Part shown: in pieces, positions 4,403 to 18,082 of the stretch
Position numbering within the stretch: the first letter of the stretch is position 1
Layout of the letters: each line of letters opens with the position of its first letter
IMG/VR virus record: IMGVR_UViG_3300020411_000617
Span: 1 to 20,258 of that record
Length of the DNA stretch: 20,258 bases
Origin: a virus
Strand: one strand, 5' to 3'
Notes under the pieces: generated by a model
The model's database searches: none
The model's input: only the letters and a program-made list of their open reading frames with translations
Told to the model about the DNA's origin: nothing
Made by a program: the position numbers and the translations under genes

Positions 4403-5241
4403 AAAATACATTATGGATATTCGGTGATTCATACGCCACAGATAGAGAAGGCCATTTAGCACATATATCTCCCAAACCAGAATGGGCATGGTATATGTCT
4501 CTTGCAAGAAAACTAAGAATGGAAGTCGAAAACCATGCACTAGGTGGTGGCCCAAATGAATACACTATAAAAAAGTTCCATGATAAATTACCTGAAATGC
4601 AACAGGGAGATCCTGTTGTTATTGTACTCACAGAAATAATGAGAAAGTGGGTTATAAAAGACAGACCAATATTATCATTCTTACGAGCTTTAGAAAGAGA
4701 AACTGTTTTAAAAGGAACCCCCGGTATTCCTGTTGATATGGATTTCTTTGAAACATATTGGTTAGATGTGTGGGACGAAGAAATTGAAACAAATCATACA
4801 AGAAATTTTCTAAATACTATTGCTTATATGAAGTATAAAAAGAAAATTAACCCTATTGTAATACCCTCATTTCCTTCTACTGTACATGCAATTAAATCAG
4901 TATGGCCAAGAGAGATACCTATGTGTCATGGCAATTTAAATAAAATATCTGTTTATGAAATATCAGAAACACCTAAACAATTACCTCCAGATATGGCAGA
5001 CTTTAGAAACAATCACATGGATCGATCAAACCATGAAATATTAGCAAATAAAGTTTATAATTCAATAGTTGATGGTAGTGATATAGATTTAAAAAGCAAT
5101 TTTAAAAGAAACTTATATAGTCAAAAACAAATAAAAGAAAAATACAATCCAGATGGAAAATTAGATTGGTTAAATGATAATTGGGGTGATGTTAACAAAT
5201 CTCATCTGACAGATGATGGCAATGCAAGAAGAAAACCATGA
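4399..5241 (+). CDS. SGNH/GDSL-like hydrolase
   Basis: This 280-residue protein starts LWIFGDSYA, which matches block I of SGNH hydrolases, with the nucleophile Ser at residue 11. HALGGGPNEY at about 47-56 fits block II, where the oxyanion Gly and Asn are expected. VVIVLTEIMRKW takes the block III position but lacks the usual GxND. SHLTDDGN near 268-275 resembles the C-terminal catalytic His block (H269). Such enzymes are esterases, lipases or O-acyl transferases acting on lipids or glycans. No signal peptide is present, so action is cytoplasmic. The gene is linked by 4-base overlaps on both sides. Deacylation or acyl transfer in the same pathway as the desaturase and GNAT-like genes is a reasonable inference. 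Confidence 0.68.
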   Translation: MKNTLWIFGDSYATDREGHLAHISPKPEWAWYMSLARKLRMEVENHALGGGPNEYTIKKFHDKLPEMQQGDPVVIVLTEIMRKWVIKDRPILSFLRALERETVLKGTPGIPVDMDFFETYWLDVWDEEIETNHTRNFLNTIAYMKYKKKINPIVIPSFPSTVHAIKSVWPREIPMCHGNLNKISVYEISETPKQLPPDMADFRNNHMDRSNHEILANKVYNSIVDGSDIDLKSNFKRNLYSQKQIKEKYNPDGKLDWLNDNWGDVNKSHLTDDGNARRKP

Positions 5242-6635
5242 GTAATAATCAGGAGAGAATGGATGAGCTTACGGATAAACGTCTCAAAGTTAATGAGATA
5301 AGTTCTTCCTTCTGTGCTGCTAAGTGGTTACAAACTACATTATATCTAAACAATGGATTTAATCATTCTTGTCACCACCCTTCACCTCACAAAATACCAT
5401 TAGAAGAATTAGAACAAAATATACACGCATTACATAATAGCAACTTTAAAAAAGAACAAAGAGCTAAAATGTTACGAGGCGAAAGACCTAAAGAGTGTGA
5501 ATACTGTTGGAAAATAGAAGACTTAGGAAAAGGATATTTCTCAGACAGGCACTTAAAGTCTACACAAACTTGGGCTTACGATAAAATAGATGAGATTGCA
5601 AGTAAAGATCCATATGACGATATATTCCCTACATATTTAGAAGTATCACTATCAAATGCTTGTAACTTTGCCTGTGCATATTGTTCTCCTGAAATTAGTA
5701 GTAAGTGGATGGAGGATATTAAAAAGAACGGAGAGTATCCTACAAAGTTTGGCTCTCATAATTTAGACTGGTTAAAATCTGAAGGTAGATTTCCATATGA
5801 CAATAAAGAACATAATCCTTATGTAGAAGCATTTTATAAATGGTTTCCATTAGCATTTCCTCATTTAAGAGTATTCCGTATTACAGGCGGAGAACCTACA
5901 ATGGCAAAAGAGTTTTGGAAAGTAATGGATATGCTTAAGGAAAATTTAGATAAAGAAAATAAACCTAGAATGAGATTTGCCGTTAGTACTAATTTATGTA
6001 CACCTGACAAACTTATAGATAGACTAATAGAAAAAATAAATGCTATACAAGATCAAGTTATAGAAATACAAGTGTTTACAAGTGCAGAAGCAACAGGTAA
6101 ACAGAATGATTATGTAAGAGATGGAATGGATTATGAACTGTGGTTAAAAAATTGTAATCGTATTTTAGATGAAACAAAAGCTCTGTTATGTCCAATGACT
6201 ACAATTAATTTATTGAGTTTACCTTCTTTTACAGGATTTATTGATGATGTTGTTAAGATGAGAGGTAGACATAATGTTACTGCATTTAATAGATTGCCAT
6301 TTAGTGTTAATTATTTACGATTCCCTCCCCACTTACAAACTGTTCTATTAGACAAATCAGAAAGACAAGAATATGCAGATGAAATACAGGAACATTGTGA
6401 GAAGTATTTAGAAGAACAAAGTAGTGCTAAATTATATTTAGATGACTTAGACCAAATTAAAAGATTCTGTGATTACTTAAGAACAGAAGAAACACAATGG
6501 AAGTATCGTGGAGACTTTGCAAAATTTGTAACTGCATACGATACTAGAAGAGGAAAAAACTTTAAAGAAACTTTTCCTGAATTTGCACATTTAGTAGATG
6601 AATGGAAATACATTCATGCGGAGATGAGAGATTGA
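5238..6635 (+). CDS. Radical SAM protein with N-terminal twitch-type cysteines (copy 1)
   Basis: This is a 465-residue radical SAM enzyme. The [4Fe-4S]/SAM site is C142-NFA-C146-AY-C149, and the SAM-binding GGEP is at 217-220. The N-terminal region has C26, C45 (NHSCHHP), C87 and C90 (PKECEYCW), a pattern expected to hold an auxiliary iron-sulfur cluster, as in the twitch-domain radical SAM group (cluster domain placed N-terminally instead of C-terminally). A C-terminal DTRRGKNFKETFPEF motif recurs in sister genes. It pairs most closely with copy 2: both share FC-AKW, NHSC, ALHNS, CWxIEDL and SDRHL. It starts by ATGA overlap. Twitch/SPASM relatives usually modify peptides or proteins, though others act on small molecules. 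The substrate here is unknown. Confidence 0.9.
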   Translation: MSNNQERMDELTDKRLKVNEISSSFCAAKWLQTTLYLNNGFNHSCHHPSPHKIPLEELEQNIHALHNSNFKKEQRAKMLRGERPKECEYCWKIEDLGKGYFSDRHLKSTQTWAYDKIDEIASKDPYDDIFPTYLEVSLSNACNFACAYCSPEISSKWMEDIKKNGEYPTKFGSHNLDWLKSEGRFPYDNKEHNPYVEAFYKWFPLAFPHLRVFRITGGEPTMAKEFWKVMDMLKENLDKENKPRMRFAVSTNLCTPDKLIDRLIEKINAIQDQVIEIQVFTSAEATGKQNDYVRDGMDYELWLKNCNRILDETKALLCPMTTINLLSLPSFTGFIDDVVKMRGRHNVTAFNRLPFSVNYLRFPPHLQTVLLDKSERQEYADEIQEHCEKYLEEQSSAKLYLDDLDQIKRFCDYLRTEETQWKYRGDFAKFVTAYDTRRGKNFKETFPEFAHLVDEWKYIHAEMRD

Positions 6636-7684
6636 ACACATTAAAAATGACATTAGCAAATCCTCGAAACGATAAGGATACATTAGAGTTAGATTTTGTT
6701 GCAGAGGATACAGTTATTGGTAGACGTTGGTTTGAAATGGCCACACAATGTTTAGAAGATAATTTACAATATGAAAAAAACTTTTGTTGGTTATCATGGC
6801 CTGATCCTGACAGAGATTTAGATTTCTTAAGAAAAAAATTAAATAGATGTGTAGACTTACTTAATAAACATGGACAAGAAAATCCTAAATGGAATGGTTA
6901 TACAATACATGAGAAATGGAATGATATATTAGAGTATGATGCATTAAATCAATTACATCATCATTTTGAAATACTAATGGGGCAAGTATGGGATATAAGT
7001 CCTTATATGATTACTGCTGATGATGAAACAAAATATCAAATAAGACAATTAAACAATTTAGTACACGAAACACAAAGTAGATTAGCAGTTAATGATTTAC
7101 CATTAGAAATACTTCCTGCCATGACTGTTGTTAGTTATTTAAACATACATAGAGAATTATTTGACGATAGTTACTATGACTCTTTTGATCTTAATAGAAA
7201 CTTTGGAGATATATTTCTACACTATTCACAAACAGGCAAAACACCAATGGAGGCATTTACAGATGATGATGACCATGTTGGTGATGAAAATATTAATGCA
7301 CTAAGATATATTTCAGGAGAATATAATCTTTGGTGGGGTAGAAGTTACACAGATGAACAAGTAGCAGAAAGAAAAAGTTCATTACGAAAGTGGTTAAACA
7401 AAAGAGACCTAATTAAATCTGAACACCCTGACTTCAATTATTATGTAGATGAGAGAGGAGATAAACAAGGTGTTGGTTGGGTAAGAGTAGGTAGATTAAC
7501 TACACCATACAATACAAGACAAGAGTTAATGAGTAAAATATTGACTAGACTTAATATTGTTAAATTACAAACTTTTACAGATGATGAATTACAAGCAGAA
7601 AATACATGGGATTATTCTTGGGCAGATAAAGACTATGAAGAAAAACAAATTGAATTATTGCGTCCACATTTTCCGAGAGAGTAA
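6632..7684 (+). CDS. Unrecognised protein between radical SAM genes
   Basis: I do not recognise this family. I favour TTG 6632 as the start (351 residues). It overlaps the previous stop as TTGA and has GGAG eight bases upstream, matching the coupling seen across the block. ATG 6602 (360 residues) is also in frame but has only a weak binding site and a larger overlap, and ATG 6647 is a third option. The protein is soluble, acidic and rich in Trp and Tyr (FCWLSWPDPDRDLDFL, NLWWGRSYTDEQVAERK). There is no signal peptide, no membrane segment and no CxxxCxxC motif. A DDDDH cluster lies near the middle. Lying between the two most similar radical SAM paralogues, it could be their partner, a peptide-recognition protein or the substrate. 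This is inference from position only. Confidence 0.75.
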   Translation: MNTLKMTLANPRNDKDTLELDFVAEDTVIGRRWFEMATQCLEDNLQYEKNFCWLSWPDPDRDLDFLRKKLNRCVDLLNKHGQENPKWNGYTIHEKWNDILEYDALNQLHHHFEILMGQVWDISPYMITADDETKYQIRQLNNLVHETQSRLAVNDLPLEILPAMTVVSYLNIHRELFDDSYYDSFDLNRNFGDIFLHYSQTGKTPMEAFTDDDDHVGDENINALRYISGEYNLWWGRSYTDEQVAERKSSLRKWLNKRDLIKSEHPDFNYYVDERGDKQGVGWVRVGRLTTPYNTRQELMSKILTRLNIVKLQTFTDDELQAENTWDYSWADKDYEEKQIELLRPHFPRE

Positions 7685-9087
7685 TGAATAAAAAAGGACA
7701 TCATAATCATGTTATAAAAGTCAGGGACGAGTTAAACAAACAAGGTCCTGGTTTTTGCTTGGCCAAATGGTATCAAGTTACTATGCACCTACATACAGGA
7801 GAAAATCATTCTTGTTATCACCCATTGGTTCATAAAGTTTCATTAGAAGAATTAAAAGAAAATCCACAAGCATTACATAATTCTAAATGGAAAAAACAAC
7901 AACGAAAAACAATGTTAGAAGGTGGCAGACCTAATGAATGTTCTTATTGTTGGGGTATTGAAGACTTGCCAGGAGATAATATATCTGACAGACATTTAAG
8001 ATCATCAGAACCATGGGCATTGCCGTTACTAGAACAAACTAAACAAAAAGATTGGAACGAAGATGTTTATCCTACAAACTTAGAGTTGAGCTTTACTAAT
8101 AAATGTCAATTTAGATGTAGTTACTGTGCACCAATGGCAAGTTCTAGTTGGTTTAAAGAAACAAAAAGACATGGTGATTGGCCATTGCTAGAAGATGTTA
8201 ACAGAAGCCAATATAATATTAGCAAAATGTCTGAGCCTGGAAATTATTATGAAGATGAGGAAAACAATCCTTACATCGAGGCATTTTGGAAATGGTTTCC
8301 AGATTGTTATCCACATTTAAAAGTTCTTAGGTTTACAGGTGGTGAACCTCTAATAAGTGAGAACGTTTTTAAAGTTATTGATTACATCAAAGAAAATCCT
8401 AAAAAAGATTTACAGTTCTCAGTTAATACAAACATGGGAATACCTAGAAGAAACTTAGATAGATTTGTTAAGTCTGTTACAGAACTTTTAGAAGATAAAA
8501 AGATACATGATGTTAAAGTTTATACAAGTGTTGACACATGGGGCAAACAAGCAGAATGGATTAGAAACGGATTGGACTTAGAAAAACATGAAGAAAATGT
8601 AAAGTATTTTATGGACAATACTTACAATTCTAAAATAGGATTTATGATTACATTTTGTTTATTAAGTATTCCTAGATTTAACTTACTTTTAGATCATATT
8701 TTAGAACTAAGAAACATATATAATAAAGGAGAACAAAGAGTAACATTTGATACTCCATATATGTTAGAACCTCCACACTTAACAGCATTAATAGGTGATG
8801 AATGGTTTATGGAAAAACTAGATGAACATTTAGCATACATGGAGTCCTTAGTTGACGATACAGACATTAATAAATTTTCAACTCTTGAATGGTTAAAATT
8901 CAAACGAGTAGTTGAATGGATAAAAGCAAATCGCTATAAAGGAGAAAAGTTATATAAAAATAGATTTGACTTTGCTTTATTTGTAGATGAACATGATAGA
9001 AGAAGAGGTACAGATTGGTTTGAAGCCTTTCCGGAAATTGAGAACTTCTATTGGGATTGCGGAAGGAAACCTGTAACATGGAAATAA
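7684..9087 (+). CDS. Radical SAM protein with N-terminal twitch-type cysteines (copy 2)
   Basis: This 467-residue protein is the closest paralogue of copy 1. The radical SAM site is C141-QFR-C145-SY-C148, with GGEP at 219-222. N-terminal cysteines C25, C44 (NHSCYHP), C86 and C89 (NECSYCW) likely bind an auxiliary cluster. Shared landmarks with copy 1 run the whole length, including NPYIEAFWKWFPDCYPHLKV before GGEP and the C-terminal DRRRGTDWFEAFPE motif. The start codon overlaps the previous stop by one base (TAATG). Tandem duplication of an ancestral gene with the orphan gene inserted between, or duplication of a two-gene unit, would explain the order. The substrate is unknown. Retention of all cluster cysteines argues that it is active rather than a relic. 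Confidence 0.9.
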   Translation: MNKKGHHNHVIKVRDELNKQGPGFCLAKWYQVTMHLHTGENHSCYHPLVHKVSLEELKENPQALHNSKWKKQQRKTMLEGGRPNECSYCWGIEDLPGDNISDRHLRSSEPWALPLLEQTKQKDWNEDVYPTNLELSFTNKCQFRCSYCAPMASSSWFKETKRHGDWPLLEDVNRSQYNISKMSEPGNYYEDEENNPYIEAFWKWFPDCYPHLKVLRFTGGEPLISENVFKVIDYIKENPKKDLQFSVNTNMGIPRRNLDRFVKSVTELLEDKKIHDVKVYTSVDTWGKQAEWIRNGLDLEKHEENVKYFMDNTYNSKIGFMITFCLLSIPRFNLLLDHILELRNIYNKGEQRVTFDTPYMLEPPHLTALIGDEWFMEKLDEHLAYMESLVDDTDINKFSTLEWLKFKRVVEWIKANRYKGEKLYKNRFDFALFVDEHDRRRGTDWFEAFPEIENFYWDCGRKPVTWK

Positions 9088-10343
9088 AAGACAAAGATTC
9101 ATTTTGTGTATATCCCTGGGTTCATACACATCTTAATACAGAAGGAGACGTTTATCCTTGCTGTGTTAGTTGGACACCTGAAAGACAATCCAGAATAGGT
9201 TGGTTAAAAAAAGATAGTTTAGAAGATCTTTTTAACAACGACAAAATGAAACAGTTACGATTGGATATGATGGAAGGTAAGAAACGACCTGACATTTGTG
9301 ATAACTGTTACAAGAGAGAAGATGCTGGATTCCATAGTGCAAGACAAGGAGCAAATATAGACTTTAAAGATGAGTTAGACACTTTAATTGCTTCTACACA
9401 TGAAGATGGATATGTTGAACCTGTAATTAAAAGCTGGGATATTAGATTTAGTAATTTATGTAATTTAAAATGCCGTTCATGTGGACCTATGTTTAGTAAT
9501 ACATGGGCACAAGAAGAAAAGAAAGCAGGCGCTCAAATAGATAGTATTCTTATACACCCAATAGAAAATGATACTGACCCAATGGAAAATCAATATGATA
9601 ATGTAGAAAAAATATATTTTGCAGGTGGTGAGCCTTTAATTATGCCTGAACATTATACAGTATTACGAGGTTTAATTGATAAGGGTGTTGCACACAAAGT
9701 TCATATAATTTACAATACTAATATGACAAAATTAGATTATAATAATAATGATATATTAGAATTGTGGAAACAATTTAAAAAGGTAGTGTTAGGTGTTAGT
9801 ATAGATGCAGTAGGACCTAGAGCAGAATATATTAGACATGGTATGAAGTGGAAAGTTATAGAAGATAATTTAAAGAAACTAAAACAGTATTGCCGAGATC
9901 AAGGTAACTTATTTTATTATTTTAGCCCTACAGTAAGTTTACAAAATATACATCACATGACAGATATGCATCGTTATTTAGTTGAAAATAATTGTATGAG
10001 TAATATAGATGCTGTGATGTTTAACATCTTATTACAACCCTTACATTATGATATGAGAGGGTTACCCGATATGATTAAAGATGAAATAACAGACAGAATA
10101 GACGAACATATAGAGTGGTGTACAGAAAACGGTAGTAAAGAAGTTCCTGGAATGGATATGAACGCAATAAAAGAATTTAATACTCTTAAAGACTACATAC
10201 AACAACCTATAGAGTTTGATAAAAATAGTTTTGTTAATTATACAGAAATGTTAGATAAAAGACGAAACGAATCATTCACAGATACTTTTCCAGAATATGC
10301 TGAGTGGTATAAAACTATAAGACAGGAATGGAATGACAGATAA
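9078..10343 (+). CDS. Radical SAM protein with N-terminal twitch-type cysteines (copy 3)
   Basis: The start at ATG 9078 (421 residues) is preferred over an upstream TTG at 9051. It has AAGGAAA about nine bases before it and gives an N-terminus, MEIKDKDSFCVYPW, aligned with copy 4 (MTDKVSKTFCILPW). The radical SAM site is C128-NLK-C132-RS-C135, with GGEP at 183-186. Auxiliary-cluster cysteines are C10, C28-C29, C74 and C77. The second subfamily (copies 3-5) shares the C-x17-CC and CxxC spacing, which differs from copies 1-2. The C-terminal motif is DKRRNESFTDTFPEYAEWY. It overlaps copy 2 by 10 bases and copy 4 by 11. The reaction and substrate are unknown. A peptide- or protein-modifying role is the common theme for relatives. 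Confidence 0.9.
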   Translation: MEIKDKDSFCVYPWVHTHLNTEGDVYPCCVSWTPERQSRIGWLKKDSLEDLFNNDKMKQLRLDMMEGKKRPDICDNCYKREDAGFHSARQGANIDFKDELDTLIASTHEDGYVEPVIKSWDIRFSNLCNLKCRSCGPMFSNTWAQEEKKAGAQIDSILIHPIENDTDPMENQYDNVEKIYFAGGEPLIMPEHYTVLRGLIDKGVAHKVHIIYNTNMTKLDYNNNDILELWKQFKKVVLGVSIDAVGPRAEYIRHGMKWKVIEDNLKKLKQYCRDQGNLFYYFSPTVSLQNIHHMTDMHRYLVENNCMSNIDAVMFNILLQPLHYDMRGLPDMIKDEITDRIDEHIEWCTENGSKEVPGMDMNAIKEFNTLKDYIQQPIEFDKNSFVNYTEMLDKRRNESFTDTFPEYAEWYKTIRQEWNDR

Positions 10344-11631
10344 AGTTTCAAAAACATTTTGTATTTTACCATGGATACATTTACATTCATGGCCCAATGG
10401 TACGGCTAAGTTATGTTGTCTATCAGACTTTTCTGGTGATGTAGGAGACTTAACACAAGAAACAATAACTGAAGTACAAAATAATGACACAATGAAAAGT
10501 ATTAGGAAGTCTCTTCTTAAAGGTGAGAGAGTTGACTTTTGTAAGTCATGTTATAAATTAGAAGATGCTGGTATTCAGAAAAGTTGGCGACGCGACTTTA
10601 ATACAAACTTTGACCATTTAATTGAAGATAGAATTAAAAACACATTAGAAGATGGCACACTCAAAGATCCTAAAATATATTATATGGATTTTAGATTTAG
10701 TAATTTATGTAATTTAGAATGCAGAACATGTGGAGGAGATTTAAGTAGTTCTATAGCTGCAAGAGGTTCCGATAGAGCTTTGACAAGAAACGTTAAAGAA
10801 GAATATAAAGCAAAAGGAATACTGTCTAAGTCTGAAAACATTATTGCTTATTCAGGTGCACCTAAATATAATAATTATTTTAATGAGGAAATAAAAGACC
10901 AACTACATACTGTTGAACAGTTTTATTTTGCAGGAGGAGAGCCGTTACTACAACCAGAACATGCACAAATATTAAAATATTTAGTAGATAATAAACTATT
11001 TAAAAAGACATTAATATATAGTACAAATGCTACTTCTTTTGTTTATAAGAAGCATGACTTTTTTGAGGATTGGAAAAAGTTTCAGGCAGTTAATGTTATT
11101 CACAGTATTGATGGTCATCATAAAGTTTTGGAATATATAAGGCAAAATGGAATACACGACAAAATATATCCTAACTTAGAAAAATGTATTGCACAACCTA
11201 ATATAAAAGCAGAAATATGTCATGTTTTAAGCATATACAATGCGTGGGAGTTTTTTGATTTCTTAGAATATATAGATGACTACATACCCCAACTTAATTC
11301 GTTTCATTTAAACTTTGCTTTTGGAGAACATAATGCAATAGGATTATTACCTGACTTTGCTAAAAAAGAATTATTTAAAAAGTATGAAGAACAATTTGAA
11401 ACTAATGAGTCATGTAAGAAGTTTTTATTATGGCATGGTGAACATACAGATAAGATAGCTAACTTTAAAGAAATGGTAGAGAATCAATATCCATCTGATA
11501 GAAAGCGGTTTATATGGGAAGAATTTATAGATAGAACTAATAGATGGGATAAATTATATAACAAGAAACTAGAGGACCACATACCTTGGTTGGCGGATGT
11601 AATAAGAAGATATGAGTCAGGACAGCGATAA
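10333..11631 (+). CDS. Radical SAM protein with N-terminal twitch-type cysteines (copy 4)
   Basis: This is a 432-residue protein. The radical SAM site is C126-NLE-C130-RT-C133, with GGEP at 201-204. N-terminal cysteines C10, C28-C29 (KLCCLSDF), C70 and C73 (DFCKSCYKLEDAG) match copy 3 position for position. A longer insertion (about residues 134-190) separates the cluster motif from GGEP. The C-terminal FPE motif of the sister proteins is degenerate here (DRTNRWDKLYNKKLEDHIPWL), suggesting a diverged substrate or partner. It starts at ATG 10333 inside the end of copy 3. Function is as for the other copies: a radical-generating modification enzyme of unknown target, cytoplasmic and oxygen-sensitive by family. 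Confidence 0.9.
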   Translation: MTDKVSKTFCILPWIHLHSWPNGTAKLCCLSDFSGDVGDLTQETITEVQNNDTMKSIRKSLLKGERVDFCKSCYKLEDAGIQKSWRRDFNTNFDHLIEDRIKNTLEDGTLKDPKIYYMDFRFSNLCNLECRTCGGDLSSSIAARGSDRALTRNVKEEYKAKGILSKSENIIAYSGAPKYNNYFNEEIKDQLHTVEQFYFAGGEPLLQPEHAQILKYLVDNKLFKKTLIYSTNATSFVYKKHDFFEDWKKFQAVNVIHSIDGHHKVLEYIRQNGIHDKIYPNLEKCIAQPNIKAEICHVLSIYNAWEFFDFLEYIDDYIPQLNSFHLNFAFGEHNAIGLLPDFAKKELFKKYEEQFETNESCKKFLLWHGEHTDKIANFKEMVENQYPSDRKRFIWEEFIDRTNRWDKLYNKKLEDHIPWLADVIRRYESGQR

Positions 11632-13159
11632 TGTAAAACTCGGGTTCAACCCGAATAACAAAAGATGTGTCCATGTGGATACAGGCATAAGGCTATTTAA
11701 CGATGGTACAACAATGTTCTGCTGTCAAAGTAATGAACAACTTACTACAAAAGATGGCACAATAGGAAACATACAAAAACATACCATACAAGAAATAAGA
11801 GAAGGTAAAAAAGCTAAAGAAATAAAACAAGCTTTAGAAGACGGTTTTGAACATCCTAACTGCTCTAAATGTTGGAATGAAGAAGCGTCTGGAATGAAAA
11901 GTAAAAGGTTAAGAGACAATCAAGAAAATCCGGATCTTATAGACTCTGTTGAATTAAAAAATATGGAGATTAATCTAGGTAATATATGTAATATGAGATG
12001 TAGAACTTGTGGGCCGTGGTCTAGTAGTTTATGGGGTCAAGAATATTATCAACAAATGCACACATTTAGAGGACCTAGAGATGAACTTATTCCTACCATG
12101 GAGAAAAAAGTCTACAACAAATGGTTGGGTCAATTTAGTAAATCATATAATGATGAATCTAAAGTATGGGAAGAACTAGACAAGTATTGGAGTGAACTAA
12201 AAAATATAGACATATATGGAGGCGAACCTTTCCTTGTAGATAAACAATGGCAAGCTCTTAAAAAGAATGTAGATAGTGGTGTAAGTAAAAAACAAAATCT
12301 ACACTTTAATACAAATGGCACAGTTTACGATCCATCTAAAATAGAAATTATGAAAGGATTTAAAACTTGTAAAATTAGTTTTTCTATAGACGGCAAAGAA
12401 GAACAATATGAATATATTCGTAACCCAGGCAAATGGGAACAAACAAAGGCAAACTTATTACAACATGTTAAGATAGCAAACCAAACACCTGGTTGGTCTG
12501 TCATTGTATGTATTACTATTAGTTTCTTAAATGTTTACTATTTACCAGAGTTATTAGAGGAGTTTATGGATATGAATGTTTATGCTTATGTAAACTTTGT
12601 CCATGAACCAGCATTTTATAAAATACAAAACTTAAGACCAGATCTAAAACTAGCTGTCAAAGAGAAATATCACAATAGTAAAATATGGAATCCTACATTT
12701 GATGATAAAAAAACACATGCAACAAAGTATGCAAATGGTGTAACGAGTTATGAAACATCAAAAGCACAATTAGAACAAGTTATTAACTTTATGGAAATAA
12801 AAAAATGGAACCCTAGTTCATATAAAGAGTTCGTTTATATGACAGCAAGAGGTGATGAATACAGAAAAGAATCATTTAAAGATACTTTCCCCGAATGGTG
12901 GGATTTAATATATAATGATCCTTATACAGAAGACTTAGATGATAAGTTTCGTACATACAGATCACACGATACAGATCACCCTGTACAAACTAAAAACATG
13001 GATATTGAAAACTTATATAATAAGATAGAAAATAAACTCTATAATAACTATAGGCCAGGTGACCCAACAGCGGCACCTGATTATTTTACAATCAAAAGAG
13101 ATAAGCATAAGTGGTTTGCCAATTCAGAAAGATTACTAAATGGAGATGAGGAAGTATAA
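11612..13159 (+). CDS. Radical SAM protein with N-terminal twitch-type cysteines (copy 5)
   Basis: At 515 residues this is the longest copy. The radical SAM site is C126-NMR-C130-RT-C133, with GGEP at 203-206. N-terminal cysteines are C19, C37-C38 (MFCCQSNEQ), C84 and C87 (NCSKCWNEEASG), the same pattern as copies 3 and 4 with a nine-residue N-terminal extension. RKESFKDTFPEWWDLI near 420-435 carries the shared FPE motif. An extra tail of about 80 residues, hydrophilic and rich in Asp, Lys and Asn, follows and is absent from the other copies. It may bind a partner. It overlaps copy 4 by 20 bases. It is the last enzyme of the block, followed three bases later by a small hypothetical gene. Confidence 0.9.
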   Translation: MSQDSDNVKLGFNPNNKRCVHVDTGIRLFNDGTTMFCCQSNEQLTTKDGTIGNIQKHTIQEIREGKKAKEIKQALEDGFEHPNCSKCWNEEASGMKSKRLRDNQENPDLIDSVELKNMEINLGNICNMRCRTCGPWSSSLWGQEYYQQMHTFRGPRDELIPTMEKKVYNKWLGQFSKSYNDESKVWEELDKYWSELKNIDIYGGEPFLVDKQWQALKKNVDSGVSKKQNLHFNTNGTVYDPSKIEIMKGFKTCKISFSIDGKEEQYEYIRNPGKWEQTKANLLQHVKIANQTPGWSVIVCITISFLNVYYLPELLEEFMDMNVYAYVNFVHEPAFYKIQNLRPDLKLAVKEKYHNSKIWNPTFDDKKTHATKYANGVTSYETSKAQLEQVINFMEIKKWNPSSYKEFVYMTARGDEYRKESFKDTFPEWWDLIYNDPYTEDLDDKFRTYRSHDTDHPVQTKNMDIENLYNKIENKLYNNYRPGDPTAAPDYFTIKRDKHKWFANSERLLNGDEEV

Positions 13160-15086: not shown

Positions 15087-15749
15087 ATGTTTAATCATGT
15101 ATCGTTAGATATTGAAAAAATAAAAACGAAGAATACTCCTAACGGACGGAGATATGAGACACCAACAGGTGAGCTCTATCCGTCTGTTACGACAATTCTT
15201 TCACATAAGACGAAACCATTCATACAACAATGGAGGAAACGAGTGGGTGCAAAAACTGCAGATAAAATATCAAGGCAGGCATCTACACGAGGTACTTCAA
15301 TTCATAAATTGTGTGAAAGTGCATTAAAGAATTTACCTGAAGATACAGATAGGTTAAGTCTTTTAGATCAAGAAATGTACAAAGAATTTCGTCCCAAGTT
15401 GAATGATATAGATAACATTCATGCACTAGAAACAAAATTGTATTCTGACCATCTAAGACTTGCAGGGCAAGTGGATTGTATTGCAGAATATAATGGCAAA
15501 TTATCTGTAATAGATTTTAAGACATCTAAGAAAAGAAAAACAAGATCACAATGCTATAATTACTTTATACAATGTTCAGCTTATGCTATTATGTTTGAGG
15601 AAAGAACAGGAATACCTGTTGACCAAACTGTAATTTTAATGGCACAAGAAGATGATGGTCCTGCTATTTGGGTAGAAAAAAGAGATGAATGGGTGCCCAA
15701 ACTTATGGAAGCAAGAGACGCATACGAAGAACATTTGAGTAATGTATAG
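15087..15749 (+). CDS. PD-(D/E)XK exonuclease of the RecB/Cas4 type
   Basis: This 220-residue nuclease has the RecB-like core: RGTSIHKLCE at 68-77 (the early His-containing motif I region), LETKLYS near 114-120 supplying an acidic residue, GQVDCIAEYNG with D130, and VIDFKTSKKRK with D143 and K145 as the D-E/Dxk signature. Q155-Y-N-Y-F and QCSAYAIMF near 163-170 match the following helix motif. These residues coordinate Mg2+ for 5' or 3' DNA exonuclease action. There is no helicase domain and no four-cysteine iron-sulfur cluster of the Cas4 or AddB type. T4-like marine phages carry similar genes, probably for host DNA breakdown or recombination. AGGA precedes ATG 15087. The end overlaps the next gene by eight bases. 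Confidence 0.87.
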   Translation: MFNHVSLDIEKIKTKNTPNGRRYETPTGELYPSVTTILSHKTKPFIQQWRKRVGAKTADKISRQASTRGTSIHKLCESALKNLPEDTDRLSLLDQEMYKEFRPKLNDIDNIHALETKLYSDHLRLAGQVDCIAEYNGKLSVIDFKTSKKRKTRSQCYNYFIQCSAYAIMFEERTGIPVDQTVILMAQEDDGPAIWVEKRDEWVPKLMEARDAYEEHLSNV

Positions 15750-16379: not shown

Positions 16380-16673
16380 ATGAAGAAGATACTAGCTATT
16401 CTTCCATTCATTTTTATAGTAGGATGTGCTTCAGTAGCCACCGGTATAGACACAGCTAGAAATGTAGCAGCAACAACAATCTCAACAGCAACACAAGCTG
16501 GTGCAAATATGGTTGGAGCTGTGGCAAAAGATGTTTCTGATGTTGTTTCAACTACAGCAGAGGTTACAGCAGGTGTCGTTGATACTGTTGGTAAAGAAGT
16601 AAAAGATCAAGCTGCTGAACTTGAAGTTCCAGAGCCTGATTTTCCTACTGGTAAATTGAAAAACGAAGGATAA
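16380..16673 (+). CDS. Small lipoprotein with repetitive Ala/Thr/Val-rich body
   Basis: This 97-residue protein begins with a lipoprotein signal, MKKILAILPFIFIVGC-AS. The lipobox VGC makes Cys16 the lipidated residue, so it should sit in the inner or outer membrane facing the periplasm. The mature part is an amphipathic, alanine-, threonine- and valine-rich stretch (TATQAGANMVGAVAKDVSDVV and similar), probably helical. It ends PEPDFPTGKLKNEG. The DFPTG motif reappears in the frameshifted tail of the lipoprotein at 17199. Possible roles are o-spanin or superinfection exclusion, from location near the cell wall hydrolase, but this is not proven. It has an AAGGAG binding site, a late promoter upstream and a hairpin terminator 16 bases downstream. 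Confidence 0.75.
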   Translation: MKKILAILPFIFIVGCASVATGIDTARNVAATTISTATQAGANMVGAVAKDVSDVVSTTAEVTAGVVDTVGKEVKDQAAELEVPEPDFPTGKLKNEG

Positions 16674-16766: not shown

Positions 16767-16874
16767 TTAACTAGCCCATTGAACAAACAAAAACACACAA
16801 TAAAAAATGCTTAGTGGAATTGCTGTCAATACAACTTGATTCAAAACGGTCAGCCCTTTGCGTAGGTCGTTCAT
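16767..16874 (-). CDS. Very small single-span membrane protein
   Basis: This 35-residue protein starts at ATG 16874. The start overlaps the upstream stop as ATGA and has a near-perfect AAGGAGG about nine bases before it. The sequence MNDLRKGLTVLNQ is followed by a hydrophobic segment (VVLTAIPLSIFYCVFLFVQ) and a short end, WAS, so it is one transmembrane helix with a basic cytoplasmic N-terminus. An upstream extension of the frame to 16979 has no comparable ribosome binding site and is rejected. Position beside a secreted cell wall hydrolase makes holin or antiholin a possible function. This is inference from size, topology and location. Confidence 0.65.
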   Translation of the reverse strand: MNDLRKGLTVLNQVVLTAIPLSIFYCVFLFVQWAS

Positions 16875-17056
16875 GAGAACATACCTCCTTGAAGATCTGA
16901 TAATACTATTATTATTAAGGGCAAAAGTAACGGAGCGGACATAATCGCTACTAATTGAACCGCATCGCAGAAGATACAAAATGTTTTATCTTCTCTTAGT
17001 CTATCAATGTTGGTTTTCATGTGCTTCGCTACTTCGCCAAATGTAGCTGTGGTCAT
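16871..17056 (-). CDS. Small membrane protein, first gene of a reversed cassette
   Basis: This 61-residue protein starts at ATG 17056 with GGAGAGG four bases upstream. The first 28 residues are polar and charged (MTTATFGEVAKHMKTNIDRLREDKT). They are followed by a hydrophobic stretch from about 31 to 54 (AVQLVAIMSAPLLLPLIIIVLS), then LQGGMFS. It is therefore a one-span, or re-entrant, membrane protein. Two cysteines (CIFC) lie just before the membrane segment. It is coupled to the 35-residue gene and driven by the late box at 17128-17135. A holin or holin-regulator role fits but is not demonstrated. Confidence 0.68.
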   Translation of the reverse strand: MTTATFGEVAKHMKTNIDRLREDKTFCIFCDAVQLVAIMSAPLLLPLIIIVLSDLQGGMFS

Positions 17057-17173: not shown

Positions 17174-17198
17174 ATTCTACAATTAATGGAGAGCAAGA

Positions 17199-17336
17199 AT
17201 GGCTAAAGGATTAGCATTATTGGTTGTACTTTCATTCTTATCAGGTTGTGGAGCAAATATTTCACTTACAGCTTCTGTACCAGAAGGAAAAGACTTAGAC
17301 GTTACAATCAAAACTTCTGAAACACCGGGAAAGTAG
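17199..17336 (+). CDS. Small lipoprotein; zero-frame product of a likely -1 frameshift gene
   Basis: This 45-residue zero-frame protein begins MAKGLALLVVLSFLSGC, with lipobox LSGC (Cys17 lipidated). The mature part is short and hydrophilic (GANISLTASVPEGKDLDVTI, then KTSETPGK). ATG 17199 has GGAGAG at the right distance and a late promoter upstream. The TAG stop directly follows a G GGA AAG heptamer. In the -1 frame translation would continue for 17 codons to TAA at 17384, giving a 62-residue protein. The extended C-terminus DFPTG matches that of the neighbouring 97-residue lipoprotein, which supports the shifted frame as coding. A one-base indel is the alternative. A role in lysis or the envelope is suggested only by location. 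Confidence 0.75.
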   Translation: MAKGLALLVVLSFLSGCGANISLTASVPEGKDLDVTIKTSETPGK

Positions 17337-17386
17337 TAAGCACCGGGAAACCACAAGTAGATTTCCCAACAGGTGCATTACAATAA
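17327..17386 (+). other. Candidate programmed -1 ribosomal frameshift site and -1 frame extension
   Basis: G GGA AAG at 17327-17333 fits X XXY YYZ in the zero frame and equals the heptamer used by phage lambda for gpG/gpGT. TAG follows at once. A possible stem-loop comes next: CACC (17341-17344) with GGTG (17372-17375), and GGGAAA (17345-17350) with TTTCCC (17362-17367), having an 11-base loop and a 4-base bulge. The spacer is 7 bases to the outer helix, or 11 to the inner one. Shifted reading from 17333 encodes VVSTGKPQVDFPTGALQ and stops at 17384-17386. The 10-base repeat CACCGGGAAA (17323-17332 and 17341-17350, 18 bases apart) offers an alternative pairing. Confidence 0.6.
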
Positions 17387-17599: not shown

Positions 17600-18082
17600 A
17601 TGAACATTAAATGGAAATTATTACCGATATTATTTTTTGGAATGTTAGGGTTTTCAAACCCTGTGGAAGCGGATGAAAATGAAATCAGATGCTTAGCAGA
17701 AAATATATATTTTGAAGCTAGGAGTGAATCTACAGCAGGAAGAATTGCAGTAGCACTTGTGGTATTAAACAGAGTAGAAGATAAAAGGTTTCCTGACTCT
17801 GTATGTGGTGTTGTTAAACAGACAAAGTATTATCCAAGCGGTAGAATAGATTTACACTCATGCCAATTTAGTTGGTATTGTGATGGGAAATCTGACACAC
17901 CAACAGAAGCATGTTGGGACGAGATATACTTGTTAGCAGAAGTAATGATGGGTTGGAGTGCAAGTGATTTTACAAATGGTTCATTATGGTACCATTCTAA
18001 AAAGGTTAACCCTAATTGGGCATCACATTATCAGAAAACAGTTAGTATAGATAACCATATTTTCTACAAACCAGTTGACTAA
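17600..18082 (+). CDS. Secreted SleB-type cell wall hydrolase, likely endolysin
   Basis: This 160-residue protein starts at ATG 17600 with AGGGAG upstream. A signal peptide (KLLPILFFGMLGFSNPVEA) ends at about residue 24, so export could be by the host Sec system. The mature protein is the SleB/Hydrolase_2 domain: CLAENIYFEARSES at 31-44 holds the conserved E-x-x-Y-x-E-A-R signature, ALVVLNRVEDKRFPDSVCGVV follows, then QFSWYCDGKS and LWYHSKKVNPNWA. Family members cleave peptidoglycan glycan strands as lytic transglycosylases or amidase-like enzymes. Several phages use this fold as an endolysin. Nearby small membrane proteins and lipoproteins fit a lysis cluster. Whether the signal is cleaved or acts as a signal-anchor cannot be told by eye. 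Confidence 0.88.
   Translation: MNIKWKLLPILFFGMLGFSNPVEADENEIRCLAENIYFEARSESTAGRIAVALVVLNRVEDKRFPDSVCGVVKQTKYYPSGRIDLHSCQFSWYCDGKSDTPTEACWDEIYLLAEVMMGWSASDFTNGSLWYHSKKVNPNWASHYQKTVSIDNHIFYKPVD

Follow-up and report, generated by a model that had tools for sequence, protein, structure and literature searches.

The lipoprotein locus and its phage

A small lipoprotein gene, a 97-residue lipoprotein gene and a gene for a cell-wall hydrolase lie on one strand of the window, the IMG/VR virus record of 20,258 bases analysed here (Table 1). Judged by its genes, the source is a T4-like marine phage: the best named matches of the exonuclease at 15087 are Pelagibacter phage Mosig, phage C48C1 and cyanomyoviruses, and the window also has genes for PhoH and a gp59-type helicase loader. 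Elsewhere in the window, large ORFs follow in succession at 5238–13159, several with CxxxCxxC-like motifs by eye and possibly tandem radical-SAM paralogues, and the minus strand carries at 137–1348 an ORF of 403 residues of low complexity with long Asn-Thr repeats (NTNTNT).

Table 1. Features of the lipoprotein locus, in window positions except for the last row
Feature	Position	Strand	Basis
97-residue lipoprotein, C-terminal peptide PDFPTGKLK	16380..16673	+	DFPTGxLK invariant, nine aligned family members
GGAG ribosome-binding site of the lipoprotein gene	17188..17191	+	Sequence reading; 7 bases 5' of ATG
Zero-frame short lipoprotein gene	17199..17336	+	45 residues: signal peptide, lipobox LSGC, 29-residue mature part
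Slippery heptamer G GGA AAG	17327..17333	+	GGGAAAN in phase, 18/18 distinct frameshift-group sequences
Zero-frame stop TAG	17334..17336	+	Abuts heptamer; TAA or TAG in all relatives
-1 extension VVSTGKPQVDFPTGALQ and stop TAA	17333..17386	+	Conserved PxV(D/E)FPTG tail, dN/dS by frame, no start codon
Putative stimulatory hairpin	17340..17376	+	Arms 17340–17350 / 17362–17367 and 17372–17376; folding, covariation
SleB/CwlJ-type cell-wall hydrolase (endolysin)	17600..18082	+	PHROG 938 endolysin, E 4e-23
L118/L119 lipoprotein tail	L118:3126–3222		Zero frame: TTEND TGA, AGG AGA ... VDPYVDFMTGKLIIN TAA

The zero-frame product, MAKGLALLVVLSFLSGCGANISLTASVPEGKDLDVTIKTSETPGK, has a short N-terminal signal peptide, a lipobox of the bacterial form L-x-G-C and a residue other than Asp at position +2, and is predicted to be a lipoprotein, of outer-membrane type as judged by the +2 residue. 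The lipobox varies among the sequences (LSGCG, LAGCG, VSGCG or LIGCG) and Cys17 is invariant. Relatives carry a purine-rich stretch upstream, in the same position as the GGAG of the window. When the short form was modelled with AlphaFold2, the mean pLDDT was 66 and the signal helix alone was modelled. The small lipoprotein falls in no PHROGs or Pfam family, and zero relatives of it were found in the cellular genome contigs searched. Among the named phages of INPHARED, the 97-residue lipoprotein and a short-form homologue had no match, and the single match to the fused protein was at chance level (E 4). The gene family appears to be new. Cor superinfection exclusion (E 0.014) and Rz-like spanins (E 0.06–0.14) gave weak matches that start in the signal peptide and were set aside.

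Searching IMG/VR with the fused protein described below returned 23 loci, and a profile search added 5 further frameshift-type loci (L105–L109). The frameshift group comprises 29 loci, the window and 28 IMG/VR relatives, of which 27 are complete and give 18 distinct sequences; related loci of the small lipoprotein, all kinds included, number 75. Among these are 45 loci of other phages (L120–L164; for example L135:2998–3135) with the short form only, GCAASQISLTASAPKGKDLDITIKT..., and no tail, which indicates that the short form is a complete protein in its own right. Neither the 97-residue lipoprotein nor a SleB gene was found in the contig DNA of these 45 loci.

The SleB-type hydrolase lies downstream in 31/31 extended-gene loci, and the 97-residue lipoprotein adjoins 23 of the 25 extended genes that have sufficient upstream sequence. 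The latter is present also in loci where the small lipoprotein was not found; in L025 and L028 the small gene is absent although the neighbourhood is the same, and the small gene is thus accessory. The most conserved part of the 97-residue family, aligned members of which are as little as 44% identical to that of the window, is its C-terminus, PDFPTG(K/E)LK; in the L011 member FPTS replaces FPTG. Its strand differs among phages, and it matches no known family. Two tiny membrane-protein-like ORFs (MTTATFGEVAK... and MNDLRKGL...) occupy 16767–17056 on the strand opposite to the lipoprotein, and the former recurs on the minus strand in L025 and L028 and on the strand of the lipoprotein in L118 and L193.

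Heptamer, tail and hairpin in the relatives

The zero frame of the window terminates CCG GGA AAG TAG with GGGAAAG in phase for a -1 shift, as the original prediction had read it. The -1 frame, read from 17333, has 17 sense codons (17333–17383) before TAA at 17384–17386, and the predicted fused product has 62 residues and the C-terminus PQVDFPTGALQ. The reported echo between this ending, VDFPTGALQ, and the PDFPTGKLK terminus of the lipoprotein at 16380 is plain from the end of the latter, PDFPTGKLKNEG. Junction peptides predicted for the fused product include TSETPGKVVSTGKPQ and TSETPGNLITQR. GGGAAA occurs three times in the 20,258 bases, at 17327, 17345 and 17885.

All 29 loci of the frameshift group carry G GGA AA(G/C/A) in phase, and in each the -1 frame runs on without a stop into a conserved tail, PxV(D/E)FPTG; the zero-frame stop follows the heptamer directly or, in one lineage, after one codon. 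The 18 distinct sequences share ancestry and do not count as independent trials; in all of them the G of codon 43 and GGA AA are unchanged, whereas most nearby codons vary at their third base. Codon 43 is CCG in 16 of the 18 and CAG (Gln) in two, the L105 group; because Gln is encoded here by CAG, the heptamer outlives the change from Pro to Gln. Where codon 43 specifies proline it is CCG in 16 of 16 sequences, a codon that accounts for 15 of 235 proline codons (6%) window-wide, and the other conserved proline is CCA throughout the aligned sequences. A pattern search of IMG/VR DNA for heptamer, stop and V(D/E)FPTG codons only, the upstream gene being ignored, matched 24 contigs, every one already a family contig. 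The final base of the heptamer is C or A in 11 of the 18 distinct sequences; in E. coli, AAC is regarded as a weaker A-site codon. G_GGA_AAG is highly shift-prone in E. coli, and haloarchaeal viruses express g-t through G_GGA_AAC and G_GGA_AAG, HCTV-1 having the former (PMC5009743).

The tail looks to be under protein-level constraint in the -1 frame. When differences were counted pairwise in the first 16 codons of the tail, the group of the window had 15 synonymous and 4 non-synonymous differences in this frame (dN/dS 0.09), and raw dN/dS in the PYV group was 0.46 for the -1 frame as against 2.19 and 1.04 for the other two readings; because the sequences are related and selection on tail and stem overlaps in the same bases, which confounds dN/dS, the values are indications rather than clean estimates. 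In the 170-kb relative, FPTG codons elsewhere lie in other frames or in larger proteins, never at the C-terminus of a lipoprotein. The longest tail seen is that at L004:2807–3045, where the -1 extension continues beyond FPTGEL (SFNTFDTDIPTYDYPFD).

The stem-loop of the original prediction, placed at 17341–17375 and 7 bases beyond the heptamer, proved to be real, its limits being one base wider on each side by pairing and its start only 6 bases past the heptamer; it has 11 pairs and a 4-base bulge. In each of the frameshift-group loci a hairpin lies about 5–6 bases 3' of the heptamer. The fold of the window had a z-score of -2.17 against dinucleotide shuffles and of -3.75 against recoded sequences with an unchanged -1 protein, 0.3% of which fold as well (p 0.003). 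The natural sequence was likewise more stable than recoded ones in L007, L008, L009 and L012 (p about 0.01–0.02), and had only a modest, not clear-cut edge in L004, L014 and L105 (p 0.08–0.13); the L017 sequence in this test stopped before its 3' arm. In the PYV alignment (A3), which has no gaps, 98.6% of the cells of an 8-pair stem are standard pairs and two pairs are changed on both sides (C-G/A-U/G-C at one, A-U/C-G at the other), whereas an offset of 1 to 3 columns in the partner reduced pairing to 28–38% with zero both-side changes. The alignment of the window's group with L017 and L019 (A4) has 100% standard pairs and again two pairs changed on both sides, making four such compensatory pairs across A3 and A4. 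The choice of D or E in V(D/E)FPTG tracks the pairing partner (GAC-G, GAT-A, GAG-C), L105 (GAA) being the one mismatch to this rule. A pseudoknot is possible in the PYV group, where the loop CCC could pair with a downstream GGG that sits within the Gly codon region of FPTG; its three pairs are without covariation.

Probable frameshifting and alternative readings

No relative that has the tail in another frame has lost any part of the arrangement, which argues for more than chance, and the gene at 17199 is very probably a programmed -1 ribosomal frameshift gene; against this stand the final C or A of the heptamer in 11 of the 18 distinct sequences, the stem of only about 8 pairs in one group (PYV) and the modest stability margins in L004, L014 and L105. 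The comparison across genomes proposed with the original prediction, of heptamer, adjacent stop, stem and purifying selection in the -1 frame, came out in its favour on all four counts, and signal, phase, conservation, covariation and tail selection in the relatives together lend the predicted frameshift strong support. We infer slippage itself and its efficiency. Most ribosomes would stop after GGGAAAG and yield the 45-residue lipoprotein (29 residues when mature), whereas a minority, held back by the hairpin that starts 6 bases past the heptamer, would shift from GGA-AAG to GGG-AAA, and 17 further residues, DFPTG among them, would bring the protein to 62 residues. If the terminal peptide binds one partner, the slip rate would set the share of the small lipoprotein that joins it.

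As the tail resembles the end of the 97-residue lipoprotein, the frameshift would probably set the fraction of molecules that carry a shared docking peptide. That the tail does dock with one envelope or lysis partner, a role based on synteny and the shared peptide, is given slightly less than even credence, and we infer involvement in lysis or the envelope solely from the adjacent SleB-type endolysin. Alternatively, a genuine frameshift could balance two forms of a lysis lipoprotein, active and inhibitory, in the manner of bacteriocin release, rather than supply a docking peptide. The product does resemble the small phage and plasmid lipoproteins found near lysis genes, such as Rz1-like outer-membrane spanins and colicin release lipoproteins: its mature short form of 29 residues, with a lipobox, is encoded beside an endolysin, and the short-form gene of L120 adjoins that of a holin-like protein (PHROG 3427, E 2e-5). 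However, searches of spanin and lysis families gave no significant match to it, the best spanin match being weak (E 0.06) and aligned from within the signal peptide, and other short-only loci sit near terminase-like genes, within a few kb in the six read by eye. No inner-membrane spanin partner was recognised nearby by eye, and the gene does not qualify as Rz1-like. We therefore regard a balance of lysis forms as unlikely, though worth keeping in mind.

Readings that dispense with ribosomal slippage fare worse. The short lipoprotein could be the sole product, with the -1 reading a fossil and the conserved bases an RNA element such as a terminator or processing hairpin; the hairpin does come directly past the stop, and short-only homologues are found at 45 loci. 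A tail constrained like protein in the -1 frame only, a tail motif common to another lipoprotein and a GGGAAA kept in phase all argue against such an element, and the hairpin is not followed by a T run in the sequences read, so that this explanation is very improbable. Still less credible is access to the -1 frame by independent initiation or transcriptional slippage. The frames overlap and intragenic starts are common in phages, but ATG, GTG and TTG are absent from the -1 open frame in 15 of the 16 sequences checked, the exception, L004, having an ATG upstream in the -1 frame without a recognisable ribosome-binding site, and without its signal peptide the product would no longer be a lipoprotein. 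Slippage of the polymerase is disfavoured by GGGAAAG, which contains no long homopolymer. Finally, a one-base deletion or assembly error splitting a former 62-codon gene, which the original prediction had named as the main alternative to a programmed shift, would look identical if confined to the window, but 18 distinct sequences, drawn from many metagenomes, have this break at one and the same position, tail and hairpin are both maintained and a continuous gene is found in 0 of 75 related loci, so that it is effectively excluded.

A zero-frame tail and known recoding systems

Two further relatives, L118 and L119, have a T4-like neighbourhood and lack the heptamer. Their tail lies in the zero frame past a UGA, which is followed by a GGACC/GGTCC hairpin; this position of the tail hints at recoding by another route and not at an error, and readthrough of the UGA stop may be an alternative way to reach the tail. 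The two are 99.5% identical over 3.4 kb and effectively one lineage, and a recent nonsense mutation is therefore possible instead. Loss of the heptamer with both parts conserved, which the original prediction had counted as evidence against frameshifting, occurs in this lineage only, with the tail behind the UGA. That one C-terminal peptide is reached by two routes, GGGAAAN frameshifting in most lineages and UGA readthrough in L118/L119, is a tentative reading that we consider rather more doubtful than not. In retroviruses (Gag-Pol) and Q-beta (coat readthrough), a C-terminal extension is gained in some relatives through frameshifting and in others through readthrough of a stop. The putative readthrough in L118/L119 may resemble this variation of route, although those are RNA viruses and the proteins are others. 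A tRNA-Arg(UCU) gene, which would read the AGG and AGA after the UGA, lies upstream of the lipoprotein genes at L118:1965–2041.

Phage lambda makes gpGT by a -1 shift at GGGAAAG, the heptamer of the window, as noted with the original prediction. The lambda G/GT pair is similar in that a -1 shift gives a minority long product whose extra C-terminal segment binds another partner (PMC5009743). In contrast, the gene described here encodes an unrelated lipoprotein beside an endolysin, with an extension of 17 residues instead of the T domain, and no PHROG or Pfam match to a tail chaperone was found for it. Long-tailed phages commonly have the lambda-type G-T shift, but T4 has been reported to be without it (PMC5009743). 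In gene 10 of T7 and T3, Lactobacillus phage A2 and the Listeria phages PSA, A118 and A500, one gene likewise gives a short and a C-terminally extended protein, and the direction of recoding in extensions of this type can vary among relatives (PMC5009743). Those systems extend virion proteins, several by Ig-like domains, whereas here an exported lipoprotein would gain a short peptide similar to the C-terminus of the lipoprotein encoded nearby.

The conserved programmed frameshifts of tailed phages that we found described concern mostly tail chaperones and virion proteins; a search of the open-access literature for a frameshifted phage lipoprotein found no paper, which is limited evidence of absence. 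The mechanism is canonical and the setting, a very small exported lipoprotein in marine phages of the T4 type, is new. Standard gene finding would call the 45-residue half alone and lose the conserved peptide. The FPTG tail shared by the two lipoproteins offers a concrete handle for finding the partner. If the UGA variant is real and there are indeed two routes, selection would act to hold the tailed lipoproteins at a fixed minority, keeping the ratio of the forms rather than a particular mechanism. Together with the second, always-tailed lipoprotein, this would amount to a dosage-controlled envelope or lysis module.
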